A stretch of 42,660 nucleotides of DNA from Deltaproteobacteria bacterium (GTDB taxonomy: Bacteria; Myxococcota_A; UBA9160; UBA4427), in the NCBI GenBank assembly GCA_019310975.1, contig JAFDDH010000082.1, positions 1 to 42,660 on the forward strand. Reading direction: 5' to 3'. Under the pieces are notes generated by a model that was not told the DNA's origin, ran no database searches, and worked only from the letters and a program-made list of their open reading frames with translations. Position 1 is the first letter of the stretch; every line of letters begins with the position of its first letter. This document shows positions 17,391 through 28,561 of this stretch, piece by piece. A program made the translations under genes and the position numbers.

Positions 17391-18221
17391 TCAGTCTGGA
17401 GCCGGGCCCACCGCCACGGTCTTCGTGCCGAGCGGGCTGTGCGCATCCGTCGATCGGTCGCCCGCCGGCTCGTGCCATGACATGAGCTCGTCTGCGCGGG
17501 CGAGAGTGGCCGCGTCGAAGCACGCCCATTCCGGGGCGTGCGTGATCCGCAGCTCCTCGACGAGGGCCTCTCGGATCGTTCCGGGTGTGGCGCCGGTCGC
17601 GACGTCGGCCACCGCGCCCGCACTGGCGGGATCCCACTCGAGCTCGAGGGCGCGGTAGACCGGCCCGAGTACTTCGCGTACCCGATTCGCATCCTCGGCG
17701 ACGATCACGCCGCCCACGTGCGCCGCACCGCGGATCACTCGCTGTCCCACGCCCATCAGCTTGATGCTTCCGCCCGCGTTCACGCTGTACTGGCCCGGGC
17801 AATACTCGCCGGCTACCTCTCCGACGCGGGCGTCCACGCCGATGCGGGTCAGCGCGGCAGCCACCCATGCCGAGAGCTGCTCGAAGCGCGCGCGGATCCC
17901 GTCGCGTGGCCGCTCGTCGGGAATCGCCCACGAGAAGGCCAGGCAGCCGCGGTGAAAGAGCGCCGCGTGGCCGCCCGCGAGCCGCAGCACGGCTCCACAT
18001 CCGTGTGCGCGTGCGGTCTCCAACGCCGAGGCGAAGCCGGGCCGCCGGGCATCGAGGAGCGAGAAGACCACGATGTCATCGGGTACATAGAGCCGCAGGC
18101 TCTCGGGCCACGCGCCCTCGGCCACGCGTCGCAGCAGTGCGTGGGTGACGGCCGTGTCGTAGACCGGCCGGCCCGGGAAGCGCTCGTCCAGGAGCTTGAG
18201 GGGGCGGCGGCCGCGATCAAT
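17391..18221 (-). CDS. Lipoate-protein ligase A-like (BPL/LplA/LipB fold) protein
   Basis: About 276 residues if read from 18221. Family features are RLAGGHAALFHRGCLAFSW, corresponding to the lipoyl/adenylate-binding loop, and VNAGGSIKLMGVGQRVIRGAAHVGGVIVA with the conserved Lys. It would attach lipoate or octanoate to carrier domains or be a non-ligase relative; this is not decided here. The start is odd: the first standard start is GTG at 18125, but the frame upstream reads LLDERFPGRP then VYDTAVTHALLRR, which looks like genuine LplA N-terminus. The only candidates upstream are rare codons: ATT at 18221, overlapping the previous stop as ATTGA, or ACG at 18227. It ends an operon of four minus-strand genes. 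Confidence 0.8.
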   Translation of the reverse strand: MDRGRRPLKLLDERFPGRPVYDTAVTHALLRRVAEGAWPESLRLYVPDDIVVFSLLDARRPGFASALETARAHGCGAVLRLAGGHAALFHRGCLAFSWAIPDERPRDGIRARFEQLSAWVAAALTRIGVDARVGEVAGEYCPGQYSVNAGGSIKLMGVGQRVIRGAAHVGGVIVAEDANRVREVLGPVYRALELEWDPASAGAVADVATGATPGTIREALVEELRITHAPEWACFDAATLARADELMSWHEPAGDRSTDAHSPLGTKTVAVGPAPD

Positions 18222-19254
18222 GACCGTCGTAGTGGCTCTCCTCGAGCGCGTCGAACTCGCGCTCTATGCGCGCGGCGTCCCGATGCTCTGCGATGCGCGC
18301 GCGAGCCAGCTCGCGCTGCTGCGCGAGGGCCAGCGCGGGCTGCTCGACCGTCGCCCAGTGGCTGATCTCCCGCCAGAACCCGTCGACCACCTCGTCGCCG
18401 TTGATGTGCCCGCCCTGCTGCGTGGGGAACGTCAGCCGACGGATTTCGCCCAGGTAGAGGCGCAGGGACCAGACGTGAATGAGCTCGTCCTGGCGGATGC
18501 GGTCCACGATCTCGGCGGCGCGCTCGGCCTCCGGGCGTCGCTCCGTGAAGAGCTCGGGATCGCGCAGCAGCTCCACGGTCTGCGCGAAGCCGCGCTCGGC
18601 CCGGAACTCGATCAGAAGGAGATTCAGCAGGAAGTAGATGAAGCGCGCGTGACCGTCCGAGATCGGCGGCATCCGCTCGAGCTCCGACTCCGGTCGCGCG
18701 ATGTTCTCGGGCACGACCGGCTCGGGGTAGTCGACGTCACCGAAGGCCAGATCGCGAAGCGCGAACCACATCTCATCGTGGCCGCCGATGCCCTTCTCAG
18801 GCTCGCCCCCCTCATCGAGGCCGTGCGCCTTGAGGAGCCCTCTGCCGAGATGGCCGACGGCCATCTCGCTCAGATCCTCGACGACGACGTCCTGGATCTC
18901 GGGGAAGGTCATGTCGGCCAGGATACGGCCGCGCGCTTCGATGTGACCCGTGATCGTGAGTGTGTTCCAGAGGCTCTTCCCGAGCCCCTCGCGCAGTAGC
19001 AGCTTGGACTGTGGGCCGTTGGGATAGCGAATGCCCGCGAGGAGTGAGGCGTCCGCCTTGAGCAGATCGCCGCCGCGGGCACGCAGCGCGCGCGTCCAGG
19101 CCTGCATGGCGGGCTCGCGCACTCGCATGCGCGGGGAGATGTATCGGCCCTCCGCGTCGAAGCCGCCGTGCAGTCGACGGCCGGCCTCGGAGTGGGGTGC
19201 CGAGTAGTCGTGCTCGCATAGGAGCTCTTCTTCCGAGTATTTCAGCTGGTCCAA
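18217..19254 (-). CDS. Ferritin-like (putative di-iron) protein
   Basis: 345 residues, all-helical by appearance, soluble. Candidate metal-ligand helices are DLSEMAVGHLGRG (E-x4-H), GGHDEMWFALRDLAFG, LLLIEFRAERGFAQTVELL and IRQDELIHVWSLRLYLGEI (D-E-x-x-H). The E-x-x-H type spacing fits a ferritin-like four-helix di-iron protein such as an oxygenase or desaturase relative, but I do not recognise a named family. Start TTG at 19254 is chosen because GAGGAAA lies just upstream and no ATG fits; further upstream the frame is out of character. It sits 29 bases after gloA and overlaps the lipoate-ligase-like gene. Confidence 0.6.
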   Translation of the reverse strand: MDQLKYSEEELLCEHDYSAPHSEAGRRLHGGFDAEGRYISPRMRVREPAMQAWTRALRARGGDLLKADASLLAGIRYPNGPQSKLLLREGLGKSLWNTLTITGHIEARGRILADMTFPEIQDVVVEDLSEMAVGHLGRGLLKAHGLDEGGEPEKGIGGHDEMWFALRDLAFGDVDYPEPVVPENIARPESELERMPPISDGHARFIYFLLNLLLIEFRAERGFAQTVELLRDPELFTERRPEAERAAEIVDRIRQDELIHVWSLRLYLGEIRRLTFPTQQGGHINGDEVVDGFWREISHWATVEQPALALAQQRELARARIAEHRDAARIEREFDALEESHYDGH

Positions 19255-19283: not shown

Positions 19284-19703
19284 CTACCACTCGCCCGTGT
19301 TCTCCATCGATGCCCAGGGCTCCTGAGGCGGCAGCGCACCACCCTTTTGCAGCAGCTCGACCGAGATTCCGTCCGGTGAGCGCACGAAGGCCATATGGCC
19401 GTCGCGCGGTGGCCGGTTGATCGTGACCCCGGCCTCCATCATTCGCTGGCAGAGCGCGTAGATATCCTCGACCTCGTAGGCGAGGTGACCGAAGTTGCGG
19501 CCGCCCGTGTACACCTCGCGATCCCAATTGTAGGTCAGCTCGACCTGCGCGTCGGTGTTGTCCGCTGCGCCGAGGAAGACGAGGCTGAAGCGGCCGGCCT
19601 CGACATCGATGCGCCTTTGCTCGACGAGGCCCAGCTGCTCGCAATAGAACTTCAACGAGGCGTCGAGATCGGTGACGCGGACCATCGTGTGCAGATATCG
19701 CAT
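19284..19703 (-). CDS. gloA: Lactoylglutathione lyase (glyoxalase I), VOC family
   Basis: Converts the methylglyoxal-glutathione hemithioacetal to lactoylglutathione in the cytosol. 139 residues, close to the E. coli enzyme. Metal ligands line up: His5 (RYLHTMVRV), Glu55 (AQVELTYNW), His73 (NFGHLAYEV) and Glu116 (ISVELLQKG). [17 protein letters not shown] is also typical. The short form without the extra loops points to the Ni/Co-dependent class. It lies 61 bases after the caspase-lipoprotein stop and 29 bases before the ferritin-like gene on the same strand. Confidence 0.93.
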
Positions 19704-19764: not shown

Positions 19765-21942
19765 CTAGGGGGTGCCTGCCGCGAAGACGACTTCGCCGGT
19801 CCCCTCGAGTGTACCGAAGCGGGGCGTCTGGCGACTGCTGGAGGCGTTGGTGACGTGGGGGCGCACGTACGTACCGATCTCGCTGGCCGTCACCCAGCCG
19901 TCGCCATCCAGATCCGCCTCGCCCTCGATGGCACGCAGGAAGTAGCGCGTGAACAGGCCCTGGCCGCCGCGCTCCAGGGCCTGCTCGCCCTCGGCGCCCG
20001 CGGTGATCATCTGTACCGCGCGCAGGGAGGTGATCTTCTCGATGTAGTTCTCGTTGGCCACCCGGGGGATGGACAGGCCGCGTGTCAATCCGAGGCCCGA
20101 GTAGCAGGAATCCATCGCGTAGTAGACCTGCTTGGCCGGCAGGCGGCTCGATATGCTGCGCAGGGTGTCCATCGAGATCGCGGTGGCAAAGACCTGCTCG
20201 GGGTCGCCGTCGGCCGGCACGATGTAGCCGCGCTTCTCGCCGGTTGGGAGCGTCTCGGTCTCGCCGTGACCGGCGAAGTAGATCACGGCCATCGAGTTCT
20301 CGTCGGTCTTCTGGGCCAGCTCGTTGCCGAGCACCGAGAGGATCCGACGTCGCGTGGCGTCCCGGTCGTAGATCTCGATCACCTCGTCGAAGCCGCGCGC
20401 ACGCAGTGATTCGGAGACTCGCCGGGCGTCGCGACCGGCGCCCTCGAGCCCGGGCCAGCGCGCGTAGTCGTCGATGCCCACGACCACCGCAACGCGACGG
20501 CTGTAGTATTTGCGGGCGCTCGGGGTCGGTCCCGGTCTGCGTTTCGTGGGGTGCTGGTCGGCGGAGGACTCCGTCTCGGTGTCCGCCCAGGGGTCGTCCA
20601 CGCCAGTGGGCATCCGCTTCGCTGCGTCCTCGAGGCTTGGCCTCTCGGGCGTAGCGGGTGGCGAGGATGGCTCGTCGTGCGGGCCCTTTGCCTTGCGGGC
20701 CTCCTCGGAGGCGTTCGCGATGCTGGCCTTGATGATCTGGCCGACGCCGTACTTCTCGATGAAGCCCGCCGGATCCAGGAAGGCGTCGCTCGCCTTCACG
20801 GGCGTGGCCCCGGCCGCGATCAGCATGCTCACCATGCCGCGGTCCTGGTTGGTCACGGCCACGACGATGGGCCGCGCCCCGTTCTTGTTCGGGAGGTCGG
20901 GCGGCGCGCCGTTCTCCAATAACACTTGCGCGGTCTCGTGATCACGGTTGTTGACCGAGTAGTAGAGTGGCGTATACCCAGCGGAGTCCCAGATGCGCGG
21001 ATCGGCTCCCCCGTGCATGAGCAGCTCGACGACCATCGCATCACGATTCTGGACGGCGGCCACCAGCGGCGGCCGACCGTCGCTGCCCCGCGTGTCGGGA
21101 TCGGCGCCGGCCTCGAGCAGCATCTCGCTGCTCTCGGCGTCCTGTCTGCGCACCGCGATGACGAGCACGGGATCGCGCGACGAGCTGGTGGCGTTGGCGT
21201 CTGCATTGTGCTCGAGCAGGAGCTGTGTGATCTCGCCGTCTCCGTGCTCGACGGCACGCACCAGGGGAGCCGAACCATCCCGAGTCGTCAGGTTCGGATC
21301 GGCGCCGGCCTCCAGCAGCTGCTCGACGATCTCCTGATCGCGTTGCTCCACCGCGTGGTAGAGCGGTGTGCGCTGATCGCGGTCAGGCGTATTCGGATCG
21401 GCCTTGTGGGTGAGCAGTAGCCGCACGATCTGTATGTTGCGCTTGTCGGCGGCGAGCATCAGCGCCGAATCGCGATCCTCGTCGCGCAACGACGGATCTG
21501 CACCCGCCACGAGGAGCATCTTGGCGATCTCGATCTCGCCGTCGCGCGCCGCCTGCATGAGCGGGGTGCGCCGGTCCGCGTCCGCCAGGTCCGGATTTGC
21601 CCGATGCTCGAGCAGGAGCTTCACCACGGCGACACGACGCTTCTCGACCGCCAAGAAAAGCGGGGTCTGGCTCTTGTTCGTGCGCGCGTCGATGCGTGCG
21701 CCGTGCTCGATCAGCTGACGCGCCGCGCCCAGCTGTCCCCTGCGCGCCGCACGGTGCAGGGGCGTGCGGCCGCGGGAGTCCACCGCGTCCGGGCTCGTGC
21801 CCTGGACCAGCAATGCTTCGAGCAGCGCGGAATCGCCGCGCTCGGCCGCCTGGTGGAGTGTGACCGTGCCCGCGCAGCCGACCGCCAGCGTGAGTGCCAC
21901 GCCGAGCACCGCGGCCTGCGTCCAGCGGCGATGTTGGGGCAT
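19765..21942 (-). CDS. Ankyrin-repeat caspase-like (peptidase C14) lipoprotein with EF-hand
   Basis: 725 residues in a rare domain order. A signal peptide ends in the lipobox LAVGC near residue 23, so the protein should be lipidated and membrane-anchored. About eleven ankyrin repeats follow (TPLHRAA, TPLFLAV, TPLMQAA, TPLYHAV and similar), to about residue 380. A Pro/Ser/Thr-rich linker precedes a caspase-like domain: [20 protein letters not shown], then VIYFAGHGE with catalytic His559, then [12 protein letters not shown] with catalytic Cys613. Near residues 675-690 is an EF-hand-like loop, [12 protein letters not shown]. The ATG at 21942 has GAGGAGG six bases upstream. It leads a probable operon with gloA, the ferritin-like gene and the lipoate-ligase-like gene. 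Substrate and trigger are unknown; ankyrins could sense a partner and calcium could gate activity (inference). Confidence 0.9.
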
Positions 21943-22348
21943 CACGGGCCTCCTCGGAGTTTCGGCGCCCCCCGAACCGTGAATGGTATCCCGGGGCGGG
22001 TACGCTGGCCCGCAGCGGGGATCCGGCGGACTGCTCGGACGAACGTGGGTGCCGGTTCGGGTCAGCCAGGTTCCGCGAGACCGGCTCGGGCCAGCGCGGA
22101 GTCAGCCAGGGAGTCCGAGTCAGCTCTTGCACGCGCTGTGATCGCAGTCGGCTTCGCCCGGATCTGGGCTGCGATCGGCTCCGCTGCGGCCGGCAAGTCG
22201 GCCCAGTCCCCCAGCTGTCTCAGAACGGGTGTAAAAGGACCCATCTTGTCTTTGTCTGGGATTGGAGGCAGATTCCCTCGCAATCTCGTGGGGTGGGGGG
22301 CCCCAGAGACGATCGCAACCCGCCCCGTGGTGCATGCGGAGAGGCGAC
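21943..22348. promoter_or_regulatory. Divergent gap between the caspase lipoprotein and cdaA-ybbR
   Basis: About 400 bases with no supported gene. GTCAGCCAGG-type units recur near 22060-22110. A lower-GC stretch at about 22230-22290 is the likeliest promoter zone for the cyclase gene. GGAGAGG at 22338-22344 is the ribosome-binding site. Confidence 0.4.
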
Positions 22349-23515
22349 GTGCTGCCGACGTTGGCCGAGTTGCGGCTCAGCGATCTCGTCGACATCGCCA
22401 TCGTGGCGACGCTGATCTGGGTCGGCATCGCCTGGCTGCGGGCATCGCGCGCCCGCATGGGGGTGCTTGGGCTCTCAGCCATTGCCGCGCTCTTCCTGCT
22501 GGCGCGCGGGCTCAATCTCGAGCTGACCACGCTCCTGCTGCAGGGCTTCTTCGCGGTCGCCACGCTCGTTCTGGTGGTCGTCTTCCAGGACGATCTGCGC
22601 CGCCTCTTCGAGGGGATCGCGGTCTGGGGGCTGCGTCGCACAGCGCCGCGCGCGCCGCCGGATGTCGAGCAGGCGCTGGTTCGCGTCGCCTTTCACCTCG
22701 CGCAGGCAGGGATCGGAGCGCTGATCGTCCTCCCCGGCCGCGAGCCGCTGGAACGACATCTCGAAGGCGGCGTCTACCTCGACGGGCGCAGCAGCGAGGA
22801 GCTGCTGCTGAGCCTATTCGACCCGGGAACGCCTGGCCACGATGGCGCCGTGATCGTGCACGCCAACAAGGTCGTGCGCTTTGGCGTACACCTGCCGCTC
22901 TCCACCGATTGGGATGGCATCGGTCGGGGCGGCACCCGACACGCATCGGCGCTCGGGCTGGCGGAGCGCAGCGACGCGTTCTGCATCGTCGTATCCGAGG
23001 AGCGTGGCGAGGTTTCGGTCGCCCATGCCGGCTCCATCGATCGCGTCGAAACAGCCGACGAGATGGCGGGCCGGCTGAGCGACTTTCTGGGTCGATTCAC
23101 CCGGCAGGCCGCGCCGCATGGCCCCGGCGAGTGGGCCGCGAGAGTCCGCGCCCGCTGGCGCGAGGGCGCCGTAGCGCTCGTCGCCGCCGTCGGCTTCTGG
23201 TATATCGCCGTCCCTGGCGCGGCAATCGAGACGGCCGAGCGCGTGCTTCCCGTGCTGGTCGAGAATCTGCCCGACGGCTATCGGCTCGTCGCCGTCGAAC
23301 CTCCCGAGGCGCGCGTGCGCTTCGAGGGCCGCCGCCGCGACCTCGTACTGGCCAGCGGAGGCGATCTCTCGATTCGCATCGATGTCTTCCTGGCGCAGCT
23401 CGGACGCCGCACCTTCCAGATCGGCATCGATCAGGTGCGCAGCCCAGAGACGATCCGGGCCATCGGCATCGAGCCCGAGCGCGTGCGGATCGTGGTGGAG
23501 CGCGAGGGCTCCTAG
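22349..23515 (+). CDS. cdaA: Diadenylate cyclase CdaA fused to a YbbR-like domain
   Basis: Makes c-di-AMP from two ATP at the inner membrane. 388 residues. Three N-terminal transmembrane helices (DIAIVATLIWVGIAWL, GVLGLSAIAALFLLARG, LLQGFFAVATLVLVVVFQ) precede a DisA_N domain with GHDGAVIV (Asp165) and GTRHASALGLAERSDA (Arg197, His198; the usual form is GTRHRAA). After a further hydrophobic helix (VALVAAVGFWYIAV) comes one YbbR-like domain with LPDGYRLVAVEPPEARVRFE. CdaA and its regulator YbbR/CdaR are usually neighbouring genes; here they are one chain. GTG at 22349 follows GGAGAGG closely; ATG at 22334 is an in-frame alternative. Its TAG overlaps the stop of the opposing RND gene in a shared CTAG. 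Confidence 0.92.
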   Translation: MLPTLAELRLSDLVDIAIVATLIWVGIAWLRASRARMGVLGLSAIAALFLLARGLNLELTTLLLQGFFAVATLVLVVVFQDDLRRLFEGIAVWGLRRTAPRAPPDVEQALVRVAFHLAQAGIGALIVLPGREPLERHLEGGVYLDGRSSEELLLSLFDPGTPGHDGAVIVHANKVVRFGVHLPLSTDWDGIGRGGTRHASALGLAERSDAFCIVVSEERGEVSVAHAGSIDRVETADEMAGRLSDFLGRFTRQAAPHGPGEWAARVRARWREGAVALVAAVGFWYIAVPGAAIETAERVLPVLVENLPDGYRLVAVEPPEARVRFEGRRRDLVLASGGDLSIRIDVFLAQLGRRTFQIGIDQVRSPETIRAIGIEPERVRIVVEREGS

Positions 23516-26029
23516 GTGTCGTCTCCACGTGCGTGGGTCACCGGGCGTCGCCAAGCCAACAGAGCGGGCAGAAGAATCAGGATGCACAGCACGTTGAGCA
23601 GGAGTCCGACAGCGAGCAGCTGGCCAAGGCCACTGATCCCGTTGTGGCTTGCCAGTGAGAGACTGCCGAAGCTCACCGCCGTGGTCAGTGCGCTGTAGTA
23701 GACGGCGCGGGCGGTCGCGGTCGCACGCAGATTTTCGCCGGCCTCCAGCCCCGCGTTGGCACGCGACACCAGATGGATCGCGCTGTCGACTCCGATGCCA
23801 AGGAGCAGCGGAATCACGACGACATTGGTGAAGTCGAAGGACAGCTCGAGCAGCACGGCGACAGCCGCTGTGCAGGTCGCGGCCAGGATCAGCGGTGTCA
23901 TGATCAGGGCGACGTCGGCGAGGCTGCGCCAGAGCACCCAGATCAGGATTGAGATCACGAGTACTGCCGAGATCAGCGCCTGGCTGAAGGAGGACTTCGT
24001 CACTTGACCGAACTCCACGAGGTTGAGCGGCACGCCCGCGATGTTGGGTGCCACGGCCTGCACCGAGGTCACGAAGCCCTCGAGCTCGTCGATCGTGTCG
24101 AGGTCCTGGCTCGGGTAGACCTGGAGTCGCGCGACGCCACTGGGAGCCAACATGCGGCGCACCAGCGAGGGCGGCAGGTCTTCCCGCGTGATTCCGTCGG
24201 TGGAGAGTGCGCGACGTAGGCGAGCGAGTTGTGCGGGCAGTGGCGTGAGCAGCACGGCGTCCAGCTTGGTCAGCGCCTCCTCGGGCTGGCCCTCGCGACC
24301 GGCGCGGGCCAGGAAGTCGGCCAGGTGCTCGCTCAACCGCGCCATTGCAGCAGCGAGATCCGCATCGCCTGGCTGCACGCTCGGTCCTGCGAGGTGGCGC
24401 TCCAGCTCGCGTAGGGCGTTGATCTGCTCCTGCGGGACCGGCGCTTCGGCCGCCGCCAGACCCGGTGGCTTCTCGAAGAGATAGGCGACGTCGTCCAGGA
24501 TCTCGAGCTTGTCGTCCTGATCCTCGGGCACGAAGCTCGCCAGACTCACCGTGTGGTCGACCTCGTCCAAGGCCTCGAGCTTCGCGGCCAGGGGTCCAGC
24601 CCTGGCGACGTCGGAGAGCAGCACGTTCAAATACCATGGCGAGGTGCGCGGCTCGTCGAGGAGATCCTTGAAGGCGCGCACGGACTCGGTGCCCGGATCG
24701 CGCATCTCCACCACGTTGGAGTCGAAGCGGATGCCGGGGGCGATCGTCGCCGCCATCCCGAAGAGCGCCAACGCGCTCCAGCGGATGGCCGCGGGATGTG
24801 CATCGAATCCGTGCCACCAGCCGGTGCGAAAGCGCAAATCCTTGCCCAGGTCGCGCTCCGGATCGATGCGCAGCCAGCTGCCGAGCAGCGCCGGGAAGAA
24901 GGTCAGGGTCAGGAAGAAGATCACGAACATGCTCGAGCCAGCGATCAGCCCCAGCTGCGAGACGCCTCGGTAGTCGGTGGGGAAATGCCTCCGCGTGTGG
25001 GCGTCCGCGGCGCATCCCGTCCGCGTAGCCCGTGCCCAGGTGGATTCCGAAGTCTACCCCGAGCCCGATGAAGAGGATTGCGAAGGCGAGAGTGAGCGGA
25101 TTCAGGTAACCCACGGTGGCGGCGGTGAACGCACCGGTCCACACCAGACCTACGATCAGTGTGGCGAGCGCCGCGACGACGAGCTTGAGTGAGCGCATCG
25201 CCATCATCTCGTCGTAGTTGAGAGGGGGATTTCCCGTGACGCGGACCGTGACGCCGCGTTCGGGTGTGAGCTGCAGCACCTCGGCAGCCGCGCGAATGCG
25301 TTCGATGGGGATACGGCCCTGCAGGACGTGGTGGTAGTCGAGCACTGGGTGAACGACGACGACGCGGCGAGTCGAGAGGTCGAGGGACGACCCCTGCAGC
25401 AACACCGACTCCCACGAGACGGGCACAGGGTACGTGTCCCAGGCTGCCAGCGTGGCCTCGCTCACGCGATCGAGTACCCCCACCCACTGATCGGCGTCGT
25501 CGTCCGCGGGATCGCGTTCGTCGAGTCCGTCGCGCAGGATGGTCGCCATATGCGCCAGGCTCAGGTCGGCCTCGAGCTCGCCGATCAATGGCTGGATGCG
25601 CGCCATCTCGTCCGCGAAGTCGTCGAGCTCCTCGGGGCTGCGATAGAGCAGGCCATTGCGCTCGAAAAAGTCGCCGCCGCCGGGCAGGTAGGCCTCGGTG
25701 ATGGCGTCGGGCTGACCCTGGAGCTGGTCGCTGAGCATCGTTGCGGCCTCGCGCGCGAGCTCCGGGGTCCGCGCATCGATGACGACGAAGATCGCTTCCT
25801 CCAGGTTCGGGAAATGCTGGATGAACTTCTCGTGGGCCTGGCGCGAGGGCAGATTCGCGGGGATCAGACTGAGGTTGTCGGAGTTGATGCCGAGATTCAG
25901 CGCGGTGTAGATGCCCAGCACCACGGTCAGGGCGAGGATCGCGATGGCCACGGTCCGCGGGCGCGAGTCCACCCAATCGACCCAGCGCGTCAGCGCCTTC
26001 GCCAGAGCTGAGTCGATCTGTTTCTTCAT
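23512..26029 (-). pseudogene. HpnN-like RND/MMPL-family exporter, split by a one-base frameshift
   Basis: Inner-membrane RND transporter of about 838 residues if the frame is repaired. The N-terminal half (from MKKQIDSALAKALTRWVDWV) has a first helix, a periplasmic loop starting NLGINSDNLSLIPANLPSRQ, and helices up to IGLGVDFGIHLGTGYAD. The C-terminal half has FVIFFLTLTFFPALLGSWLR, a second loop, and LGIGVDSAIHLVSRANAG with the final helices. The halves are in different frames; reading PTDYRGVSQLGLIAGSSM across the join needs one base removed from GGGG at 24979-24982 (plus strand). The arrangement resembles the hopanoid exporter HpnN, though no hpn genes are near. It is either a recent mutation or a homopolymer sequencing error. 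Convergent with cdaA. Confidence 0.85.
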
Positions 26030-26339
26030 TGGCGGAGTGGGGGGCCGGCACGGGGCGGCGCATGCGGCGGGAGTCGCGCTGGGTCGCCGGCGTCGGGGGT
26101 CGGGAGCGCGCAACGATAAATCACGCGGTCCACGCGCGCATTGGGTCAGCCCATATCGAGCGTCGGACTCGCCCCGGAGACGTCAGCGAGGTCGCATTCC
26201 CATGACGAAGGACGAAGGCGGTCCAATCGCAAGCATCACGGGACGCGGGGAGGGGGGCTCGAGTGGGCGAGGCAAGCTGGGACTCTGCGCGGCGGAGTGC
26301 CACGCATCCGCAGCCGCTCGAGATCGGTGGTCTCGCGTG

Positions 26340-26674: not shown

Positions 26675-28561
26675 CTAGAGGCTCTCGCGCAGTTCACGGG
26701 TCACGCGGAGCATGCTGCGCAGGACGCGGCGTTCCACCGAGGAGAGGCCGGTCTCGGCCAGCTCGGCGTCGTGGGCCGGGCCCGTGCCGAGCGTGTCCTG
26801 GTAGTTGGTAAATCGCATCACGAGCCGATACAGGGCCTCGGGCGGCAGAGCGCGCCGCCTTCGCAGGAGCCGCTCGCTGGCGTGATCGACGGAGTCGCCG
26901 GTGATGCGGTCATAGGGGTTCAGTCTGGCCGCCCGCTCTGCGACGCCGGTCAGCAGGTGCAGAGCCGGCGTGCGCGTACGCTCGGATTCGATGCGGATCA
27001 GCTCGAGCCACGCGCGCTGGAGTCGCGCCGCCATGCGCAGACGGTGCGGAGCCGGTCGGCGGTCGCTCCGCGATGCGTAGTCGGAGAGCGCGATGCCGAG
27101 GACCTCGACGCCGGGAACGCGTGCGCGGCGAGTGGAGAGCAGCTCTTCGTCCCCGTCGCAGCGCTCGAGCCAGTGCGCGGGTAGCTCGCGGAAGAGGTCG
27201 CGCACGCAGTAGATCGCATCCCACGTCAGTCCATCCGGGACCTTCGTCGGGCCGCGCGAGGAGCGCGCTCGCTCGAAGCGGGCGACCGCGGCCAGCATCC
27301 GCTCGACGGCCTCGGGCGCGGCCTCGAGCAGCGCCGTCGCGCTCTCCTCTACGAAGCCGATCTTCTCGAGCAAGAGCATCCGCTTGACGCGCTGGAACTC
27401 CGTGTCGAAGAGGTCCAGCACCGGATCGCGGGCGAATTGGCGCAGTGGCGCCTTGCTTCCGGTGATCAGGTAGTCACGGATCTGCGCATACTTCTGGACG
27501 ATCCCCCGGGCCTTGCGGCGCTGCTCGGGAATCGTCGTCGACATGCGATCGGTGTCTGCGAAACGATACTCGCGGTGGAAGAGGCCGAACTGCCGCACCG
27601 AGCCATAGTCGATGATGCTGCCGTCTGCGAGCACGTTGTCACCGTCCCAGTCGAGCCAGCAGAACACGTAGTCGCTCTCGAAACGGGCCGCGATGCGCGC
27701 GAAGGTGAGAGCGGCATCCTCGGCCAGGTACGCATAGCGCCGCGTAGCGCGCGCACGGGTATTGGCCTCGGGCAGGGCGGGCCAGTCGCCGTTGCCGACA
27801 CGGCGATCGATGAAGAAGTCGACCGTCTGCCGGAGGCGGTCGCGTTCGCCCTGGTGGAGGTGAACGAAGAAGTGAGAGGGGCGCAGCAGGCATCGGGCCG
27901 CCCGCACGTTGATCGCCAGGCCAGAGGGCAGCGTCAGGACCGCCAGAACGCGTTCGGTCCGGATGCCGTTGCGGTGGAAGATCTCGCTCATCACCGCCGC
28001 GTTGATGCCTTCGGCCAGCGCCGCCGTCCCGCAGCCGTAGGAGGCCATGTAGTTGCCTGTCTTGAAGAAAGTGCCGAATTCGGAGGTGGCCGGGCAGAGT
28101 CGCGTGACGCCAGTCCCGCAGCTCGATACATCCCAGGTCACGCCTTTGTGGGTTACGCTTCCGTTCCAGACGCTGCGGCCATCGCCCGACGAAAGGCCGC
28201 GCTTGTCGGGGTGTTGCAGCTGCAGGTAGCGCGTGGCCATGTAACTATTCGTGAGCATGTCGCGCTTGGGCACCTTCGTCCCGTTGAGGAAGTCGTACTC
28301 GTTCAGGATCACCAGGCCAAAGGTCTCGAGCAGCGTCTTGCGCAGGGCCGCCGTGAGGCGGTCCGGATGGCCCGCCGGGATGAGGCCCATCTCACGCGCG
28401 AGGGCGAAGTTGAAGTACGCGATCTCGGCGTCGTGCCGACGTCGAGCTCGGTAGTCGATATACGCACCCGGTGCGGCGCGCCGCAGTGGATGGCGGCCGT
28501 CGATGCGGCATATGCGTGCGTAGGGTCGCGTGCGGGCGTGGCTGTCTCGAGCGGCGGACAA
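26675..28561 (-). CDS. Divergent SelO-like (YdiU/UPF0061) pseudokinase, putative protein AMPylase
   Basis: 628 residues. SelO proteins have a kinase fold but transfer AMP to protein hydroxyls. Two regions match this family distantly: a CGTGVTRL segment followed by INAAVMSEIFHRNGIRTERV, like the SelO active-site loop and the helix leading to GIPTTRAL; and WDGDNVLADGSIIDYGSVRQ, where Asn309 and Asp318 have the same nine-residue spacing as the SelO metal-binding pair. Much of the rest, including the C-terminal 200 residues, looks unrelated to standard YdiU. No signal peptide. TTG at 28561 is chosen because GAGGAGG lies just upstream. Function is inferred from remote similarity only; a plain hypothetical protein is the alternative. 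Confidence 0.6.
   Translation of the reverse strand: MSAARDSHARTRPYARICRIDGRHPLRRAAPGAYIDYRARRRHDAEIAYFNFALAREMGLIPAGHPDRLTAALRKTLLETFGLVILNEYDFLNGTKVPKRDMLTNSYMATRYLQLQHPDKRGLSSGDGRSVWNGSVTHKGVTWDVSSCGTGVTRLCPATSEFGTFFKTGNYMASYGCGTAALAEGINAAVMSEIFHRNGIRTERVLAVLTLPSGLAINVRAARCLLRPSHFFVHLHQGERDRLRQTVDFFIDRRVGNGDWPALPEANTRARATRRYAYLAEDAALTFARIAARFESDYVFCWLDWDGDNVLADGSIIDYGSVRQFGLFHREYRFADTDRMSTTIPEQRRKARGIVQKYAQIRDYLITGSKAPLRQFARDPVLDLFDTEFQRVKRMLLLEKIGFVEESATALLEAAPEAVERMLAAVARFERARSSRGPTKVPDGLTWDAIYCVRDLFRELPAHWLERCDGDEELLSTRRARVPGVEVLGIALSDYASRSDRRPAPHRLRMAARLQRAWLELIRIESERTRTPALHLLTGVAERAARLNPYDRITGDSVDHASERLLRRRRALPPEALYRLVMRFTNYQDTLGTGPAHDAELAETGLSSVERRVLRSMLRVTRELRESL

Follow-up and report, generated by a model that had tools for sequence, protein, structure and literature searches.

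A putative envelope-anchored ankyrin-caspase with an EF-hand loop inside its caspase fold

Caspase relatives of bacteria are usually discussed in connection with cell death or signalling. A gene on a deltaproteobacterial contig, in the 42,660-nucleotide stretch that was analysed in full (the window), brings together in one chain a lipobox, an arm of ankyrin repeats, a caspase-like domain and an EF-hand-like loop, and it raises the question of where such a protein would work, what it would cut, and whether calcium or the adjoining genes take part in that work. The account that we prefer, with a probability of roughly 0.6, is that of an envelope-anchored protease of the caspase type, in which the ankyrin arm would recruit substrates and a Ca2+ site would stabilise the fold. 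The sequence-only reading that preceded this analysis had proposed a calcium-gated protease of the surface or periplasm at the head of a stress-related operon.

Layout of the gene and its protein

The coding sequence of the ankyrin-caspase (725 aa) extends over positions 19765-21942, stop included, on the minus strand. It starts with an ATG at 21942-21940, from which the frame stays open down to 19765, and a Shine-Dalgarno sequence, AGGAGG, can be read on the same strand at 21949-21954, 6 nt 5′ of the ATG. An orthologue in another genus is 60% identical. The earlier reading had given the coordinates of the frame correctly and had left out the strand; its order of lipobox, ankyrins, caspase-like domain and EF-hand loop was right in every structural detail and its numbering of the motifs (LAVGC at residues 19-23, His559, Cys613 and the loop at 677-688) was exact.

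The N-terminal lipoprotein signal peptide (21874-21942, minus strand), recognised by a lipobox pattern with an upstream Arg, ends with the codon of Cys23, the predicted lipid acceptor. The ankyrin solenoid (residues 26-387; 20782-21867, minus strand) matched the Pfam model Ank_2 above its cut-off when the single protein was searched (240.9 bits, 1.2e-72), and 11 units of 33 aa could be laid out by eye, in agreement with the eleven or so repeats counted previously. A linker rich in Pro, Ser and Thr (residues 388-478; 20509-20781, minus strand), whose gapped alignment with the orthologue shows 42% identity, leads to the caspase domain with its p10-equivalent part (residues 479-720; 19783-20508, minus strand), which is supported by Pfam, AlphaFold2 and Foldseek. 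The parts of the protein have changed at different rates. Between the two full-length orthologues the ankyrin part is 52% identical with a dN of 0.45, and the protease domain 77% identical with a dN of 0.13; dN/dS is about 0.44 in the ankyrin part and about 0.14 in the C14 domain, values that are rough because the Ks of the pair is near 0.9-1.0. The C14 domain thus appears to be under purifying selection and the ankyrin part to evolve faster than the protease part.

The caspase domain and the loop inside it

The caspase-like assignment was upheld by the Peptidase_C14 profile (PF00656), which matched at 58.4 bits against a cut-off of 21.4 (1.1e-15), over residues 483-710 in a numbering with one extra N-terminal codon; the ankyrin-caspase is the sole C14 protein of its genome. 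A phmmer search of the PDB with the single C14 domain gave no match, and a profile built from an alignment of 25 proteins, the ankyrin-caspase of the window among them, was required to find the caspase-fold structures of the PDB, namely GSU0716, MALT1 and metacaspases. The AlphaFold2 model of the domain made from the same alignment reached a mean pLDDT of 90.4 and a pTM of 0.89, and Foldseek matched it to GSU0716 (3bij; E 1.3e-11), to MALT1 (E 1.7e-11) and to the metacaspases of yeast and Candida. In the model the strands and helices equivalent to p10 follow without a separate linker, and because of this neither the metacaspase nor the orthocaspase label fits cleanly.

The proposed catalytic dyad, His559 (20266-20268, minus strand) and Cys613 (20104-20106, minus strand), was found retained throughout the homologues, each residue being present in 25/25 proteins of the alignment. 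Asp611, two residues N-terminal of Cys613, is likewise invariant, and Asp505 occurs in 24/25. In the trypanosome metacaspase MCA2 (TbMCA2), Asp95 and Asp211 place basic residues in the pocket (PMC6426788), and by comparison with this enzyme Asp505 and Asp611, which align with Asp95 and Asp211, are S1-pocket residues, the equivalence to Asp95 resting on a common G-x-x-x-D motif read from alignments. The conservation of the dyad together with both acidic S1 residues makes an Arg/Lys-specific protease likely, and cleavage after Arg or Lys would therefore be the expected chemistry. The ankyrin-caspase is probably a competent protease.

An alternative is that binding is the main work of the protein, with the ankyrin arm serving in the periplasm as a scaffold or chaperone and a caspase that is rarely active or only processes itself. 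The ankyrins take up more of the chain than any other part, and there is an analogy in AnkB, a periplasmic ankyrin protein of Pseudomonas that supports catalase. Nevertheless, the alternative seems improbable, given that the 25 proteins show little or no variation at the catalytic and S1 positions, that no other part of the protein has changed as slowly as the C14 domain and that the same caspase is retained in relatives with quite different N-termini.

The second element of the domain is the loop of residues 677-688 (19879-19914, minus strand), which fits the 12-residue EF pattern, with ligands at positions 1, 3, 5 and 12, Gly at position 6 and a hydrophobic residue at position 8. In the AlphaFold2 model it is flanked by helices 663-675 and 686-700, while strand 683-685 corresponds to the usual EF strand around position 8, and the helix-loop-helix geometry of an EF-hand is present. 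Across the alignment, Asp1 and Asp/Asn5 are each kept in 24/25 proteins, and V/I/M8 and Glu12 each in 25/25. Pfam EF-hand models gave no match at E<=1 against the single ankyrin-caspase sequence; positions 200-229 of the alignment profile matched the calmodulin-like protein CML18 (8rx8; E 3.5e-4), exactly at the EF segment, and when the protein was shuffled the strict pattern arose in 0.13% of cases. Conservation, shuffles and profile match indicate that the EF-hand-like loop reported earlier is real and that its pattern is not due to chance, and they come with a more precise location, inside the caspase fold. The loop lies between the last two helices, in the p10-equivalent part, and for this reason it is not an added domain; a separate EF-hand domain was considered and rejected on the basis of the model. 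The putative site is likely to bind Ca2+.

The loop extends beyond this protein. It was found by its pattern in 7/30 proteins of a first, broader sample of C14 proteins of the phylum (in one of the seven outside the expected place) and in 17/26 of a later set of relatives, which came mostly from different parts of the phylum and had two members in common with the aligned set. An EF-type loop after the catalytic Cys was also read in plasmid-encoded caspases of Deinococcus aetherius (L160), Azospirillum ramasamyi (L162) and Rhizobium indicum (L163), and it was absent from the one caspase protein of Pseudoalteromonas that was examined. The idea that EF-hand caspases are unique to this family was accordingly rejected, and because the loop is shared with these plasmid caspases it can be regarded as a subfamily trait, one that appears to mark a wide subfamily of bacterial caspases.

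Export signal and the possible role of calcium

The segment up to Cys23 combines a short charged and hydrophobic stretch with the lipobox LAVGC and so has the pattern of a lipoprotein. The full-length orthologue (L032) retains a lipobox (LSAC), nine proteins of the set, that of the window included, have the pattern, and most of the other members carry a hydrophobic segment resembling a signal peptide; two members are without a readable export segment, one of them being a contig fragment. Nothing in these N-termini speaks for a cytoplasmic location, since the lipobox is kept in the orthologue and export segments are seen in most relatives whose N-terminus can be read, which points to the envelope. 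In E. coli, Ala after the lipidated Cys directs a lipoprotein to the outer membrane; residue +2 is Ala here too and would route the ankyrin-caspase to that membrane. A cysteine protease outside the cytoplasm needs a reduced thiol, and this counts against an envelope protease.

In the mechanism that we propose for the envelope-anchored protease, signal peptidase II would cut the signal and Cys23 would be lipidated, leaving the protein anchored in the envelope, where the periplasmic side of the outer membrane is the most likely site. The ankyrin arm would bind a partner or substrate, the flexible linker would bring the protease within reach of the bound target, and the protease would cut it after an Arg or Lys residue. 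A single Ca2+ ion in the loop would fix the last two helices of the fold, which would make activity Ca2+-dependent.

Outside the cytoplasm, Ca2+ is in the millimolar range, which as a rule would be enough to saturate a single EF loop. Because the ion is normally so plentiful there, a stability requirement that keeps the enzyme inactive before export is more likely than a graded switch, and since the protein is predicted to be exported the site might equally be a permanent structural one. If this is true, the role of Ca2+ would be a simple one, the enzyme being fully folded only after it has left the cytoplasm. The calcium-gated protease of the sequence-only reading, whose activity would be switched with outside Ca2+ as the ion enters or leaves the loop, draws on the canonical loop, the modelled helix-loop-helix geometry and the match to CML18. 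It can also draw on the Ca2+ dependence of some metacaspases, but there the responsible residue is an Asp where p10 begins, and no EF-hand is involved (PMC6426788). Gating is nonetheless unlikely: after export, a lone EF loop would as a rule be fully occupied, Gly6 is missing in some tandem partners of the family, and the loop is shortened in one relative of the alignment. What stands of the earlier proposal is the protease and its place in the envelope, both supported at the level of sequence because of the C14 match, the invariant dyad and the lipobox or signal segments in relatives; gating by calcium would be the less likely part of it.

Gene neighbourhood, relatives and known systems

On the strand of the caspase gene there follow gloA (19284-19703, minus strand; glyoxalase-I-like, Pfam Glyoxalase 1.5e-21), an unnamed gene and an LplA-like gene, and cdaA, for a CdaA-like diadenylate cyclase (22262-23515, plus strand; Pfam DAC 3.2e-32 and CdaA_N), lies divergently upstream. 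This arrangement had been read as an operon with gloA, ferritin-like and lipoate-ligase-like proteins that would serve stress proteolysis. The genes do share a strand, only 61 nt lie between the stop of the caspase gene and the start of gloA, and gloA also comes directly after the caspase gene in the orthologous locus L032. Comparison of synteny told against the operon. In 15 other genomes of the same family (G008, G010, G015, G017 and G019-G029), cdaA and gloA adjoin each other in divergent orientation, with 76-310 bp and no caspase gene between them; gloA, the unnamed gene and LplA are consecutive without a caspase gene in four loci of these genomes (L122, L123, L127 and L128), as are gloA and LplA together in L124 and L131, and the orthologous locus is without the last two genes. 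The operon is uninformative on function because these pairings exist without the caspase, and as evidence for function it was rejected; gloA would not be supported as a functional partner, and a stress operon is very improbable indeed. The ferritin-like call for the unnamed gene (18217-19200) could not be sustained either, as it had no Pfam match and its match in the PDB, an encapsulated ferritin, reached only E 0.68.

The caspase gene stands between cdaA and gloA, the ancestral neighbour of cdaA, only in the genome of the window (G000) and in G011, which belong to two genera, and the interval there is 2.5 kb. One insertion in the common ancestor of the two genera, flanked by cdaA and gloA, would be the simplest account. 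No terminal repeats of a mobile element were found around the caspase gene, and no substrate or inhibitor gene was evident near it.

Three other features of this region were observed. An MMPL-family gene (23512-26113, minus strand) is split over two frames in the window and forms a single 931-aa frame in L032 (12104-14896); the split is a frameshift, arising either from a sequencing error in the assembly or from a real mutation. The CdaA-like gene at 22262-23515 is a second copy, 33% identical to the other one (G000:C426:11757-12506), and both diadenylate cyclase copies are found in most genomes of the family. The gene at 26675-28561 (minus strand) encodes a 628-aa protein with a sub-threshold match to SelO (17.5 bits) and adjoins the MMPL gene and cdaA in L032 too.

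In place of an operon with gloA, the neighbourhoods of the homologues show tandem ankyrin-caspases and a barrel gene. Tandem pairs of ankyrin-caspase genes are present in G004, G011, G016 and G021, each followed by a gene for a protein of about 185-205 aa, and in three further loci a caspase gene or its remnant precedes the barrel gene (G004:C50, G018:C54 and, with a fused remnant, G014:C141). Of the nine matches to the barrel gene within the family, seven come immediately behind a gene for an EF-hand caspase, the exceptions being G018:C74 and G007. The model of the small protein (pLDDT 76.8) has eight long strands and matches OmpA, OmpW, Ail and NspA, and the protein is probably an eight-stranded, OmpA-like outer-membrane barrel. 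The family recurs as two tandem ankyrin-caspase genes with an outer-membrane barrel gene, and this cassette is a better context for the protein than the gloA operon. The genome of the window gave no match to the barrel gene.

The tree groups the window protein with its orthologue at 99/97, and the two fall inside a clade of 20 rows from the family and the order, which holds all the ankyrin-bearing forms together with forms whose N-termini are PEGA, serine-peptidase or unknown. The window gene would thus be one branch of an exported EF-hand-caspase family with swapped N-terminal parts. A further proposal is made only tentatively, and we consider it rather unlikely: a dedicated envelope system of this lineage, made of two ankyrin-caspase paralogues (the EF loop intact in one, Gly6 often missing from the other) and of a small barrel acting as sensor, target or outlet, would carry out surface or periplasmic proteolysis with Ca2+ always present, the window gene being a solitary offshoot of it.

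Individual relatives show several departures from this layout. At L042, L045 and L046, the first paralogue of the tandem pair has Lys, Glu or Asp in place of Gly6 in its EF loop, and the second paralogue retains the canonical loop where it was read. At L041 (260-3202), the EF-hand caspase domain is fused to a prolyl-oligopeptidase (Peptidase_S9) in a protein of 978 aa, which places two proteases in one chain. A short frame at L088 (1085-1348), upstream of the barrel gene, consists of a piece of ankyrin repeat and the EF-hand end of a caspase and probably remains from a deletion that ran across a tandem pair.

With other bacterial caspase homologues, such as GSU0716 of Geobacter (3bij), the protein shares the caspase fold, the His/Cys dyad and the acidic S1 residues; compared with prokaryotic metacaspases and orthocaspases it adds the lipobox, the 11 ankyrins and the EF loop in the p10-equivalent part. 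MALT1 and the type I metacaspases (yeast Mca1, TbMCA2) have the fold and the S1 Asp before the catalytic Cys in common with it, but they are eukaryotic and 13-18% identical in structural alignments, and the Ca2+ site of metacaspases is elsewhere. The NCBIfam family NF047832 ('caspase, EACC1-associated type') matched the domain weakly, at 66 bits, far under its cut-off of 140 bits. EF-hand and ankyrin are both absent from the main text of a survey of 2012 (PMC3501461), and ankyrin is also unmentioned in that of two others (PMC4933709, PMC6426788). A related case is that of seven archaeal orthocaspases, which likewise carry a caspase homologue and an EF-hand motif in one chain (PMC6426788, of 2019); there the EF-hand is an additional N- or C-terminal domain and ankyrins are unmentioned, whereas in the window protein the loop is inside the caspase domain. 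A search for ankyrin with orthocaspase gave no paper, and the combination of an ankyrin arm and a lipobox on a caspase was not found in the literature searched, with subscription journals mostly outside it. As far as that literature goes, the parts are known and their combination, with the tandem cassette of the relatives, is new. If the account holds, an exported EF-hand caspase subfamily with swapped arms and a barrel would make the envelope a site of caspase-type proteolysis.

The plasmid caspases of Deinococcus, Azospirillum and Rhizobium, which have an EF-type loop too, are about 29-33% identical to the window protein over the domain. On the plasmid of D. aetherius (L160), the EF-loop caspase gene lies downstream of genes for a C1 peptidase and an I42-family protease inhibitor, on the same strand.
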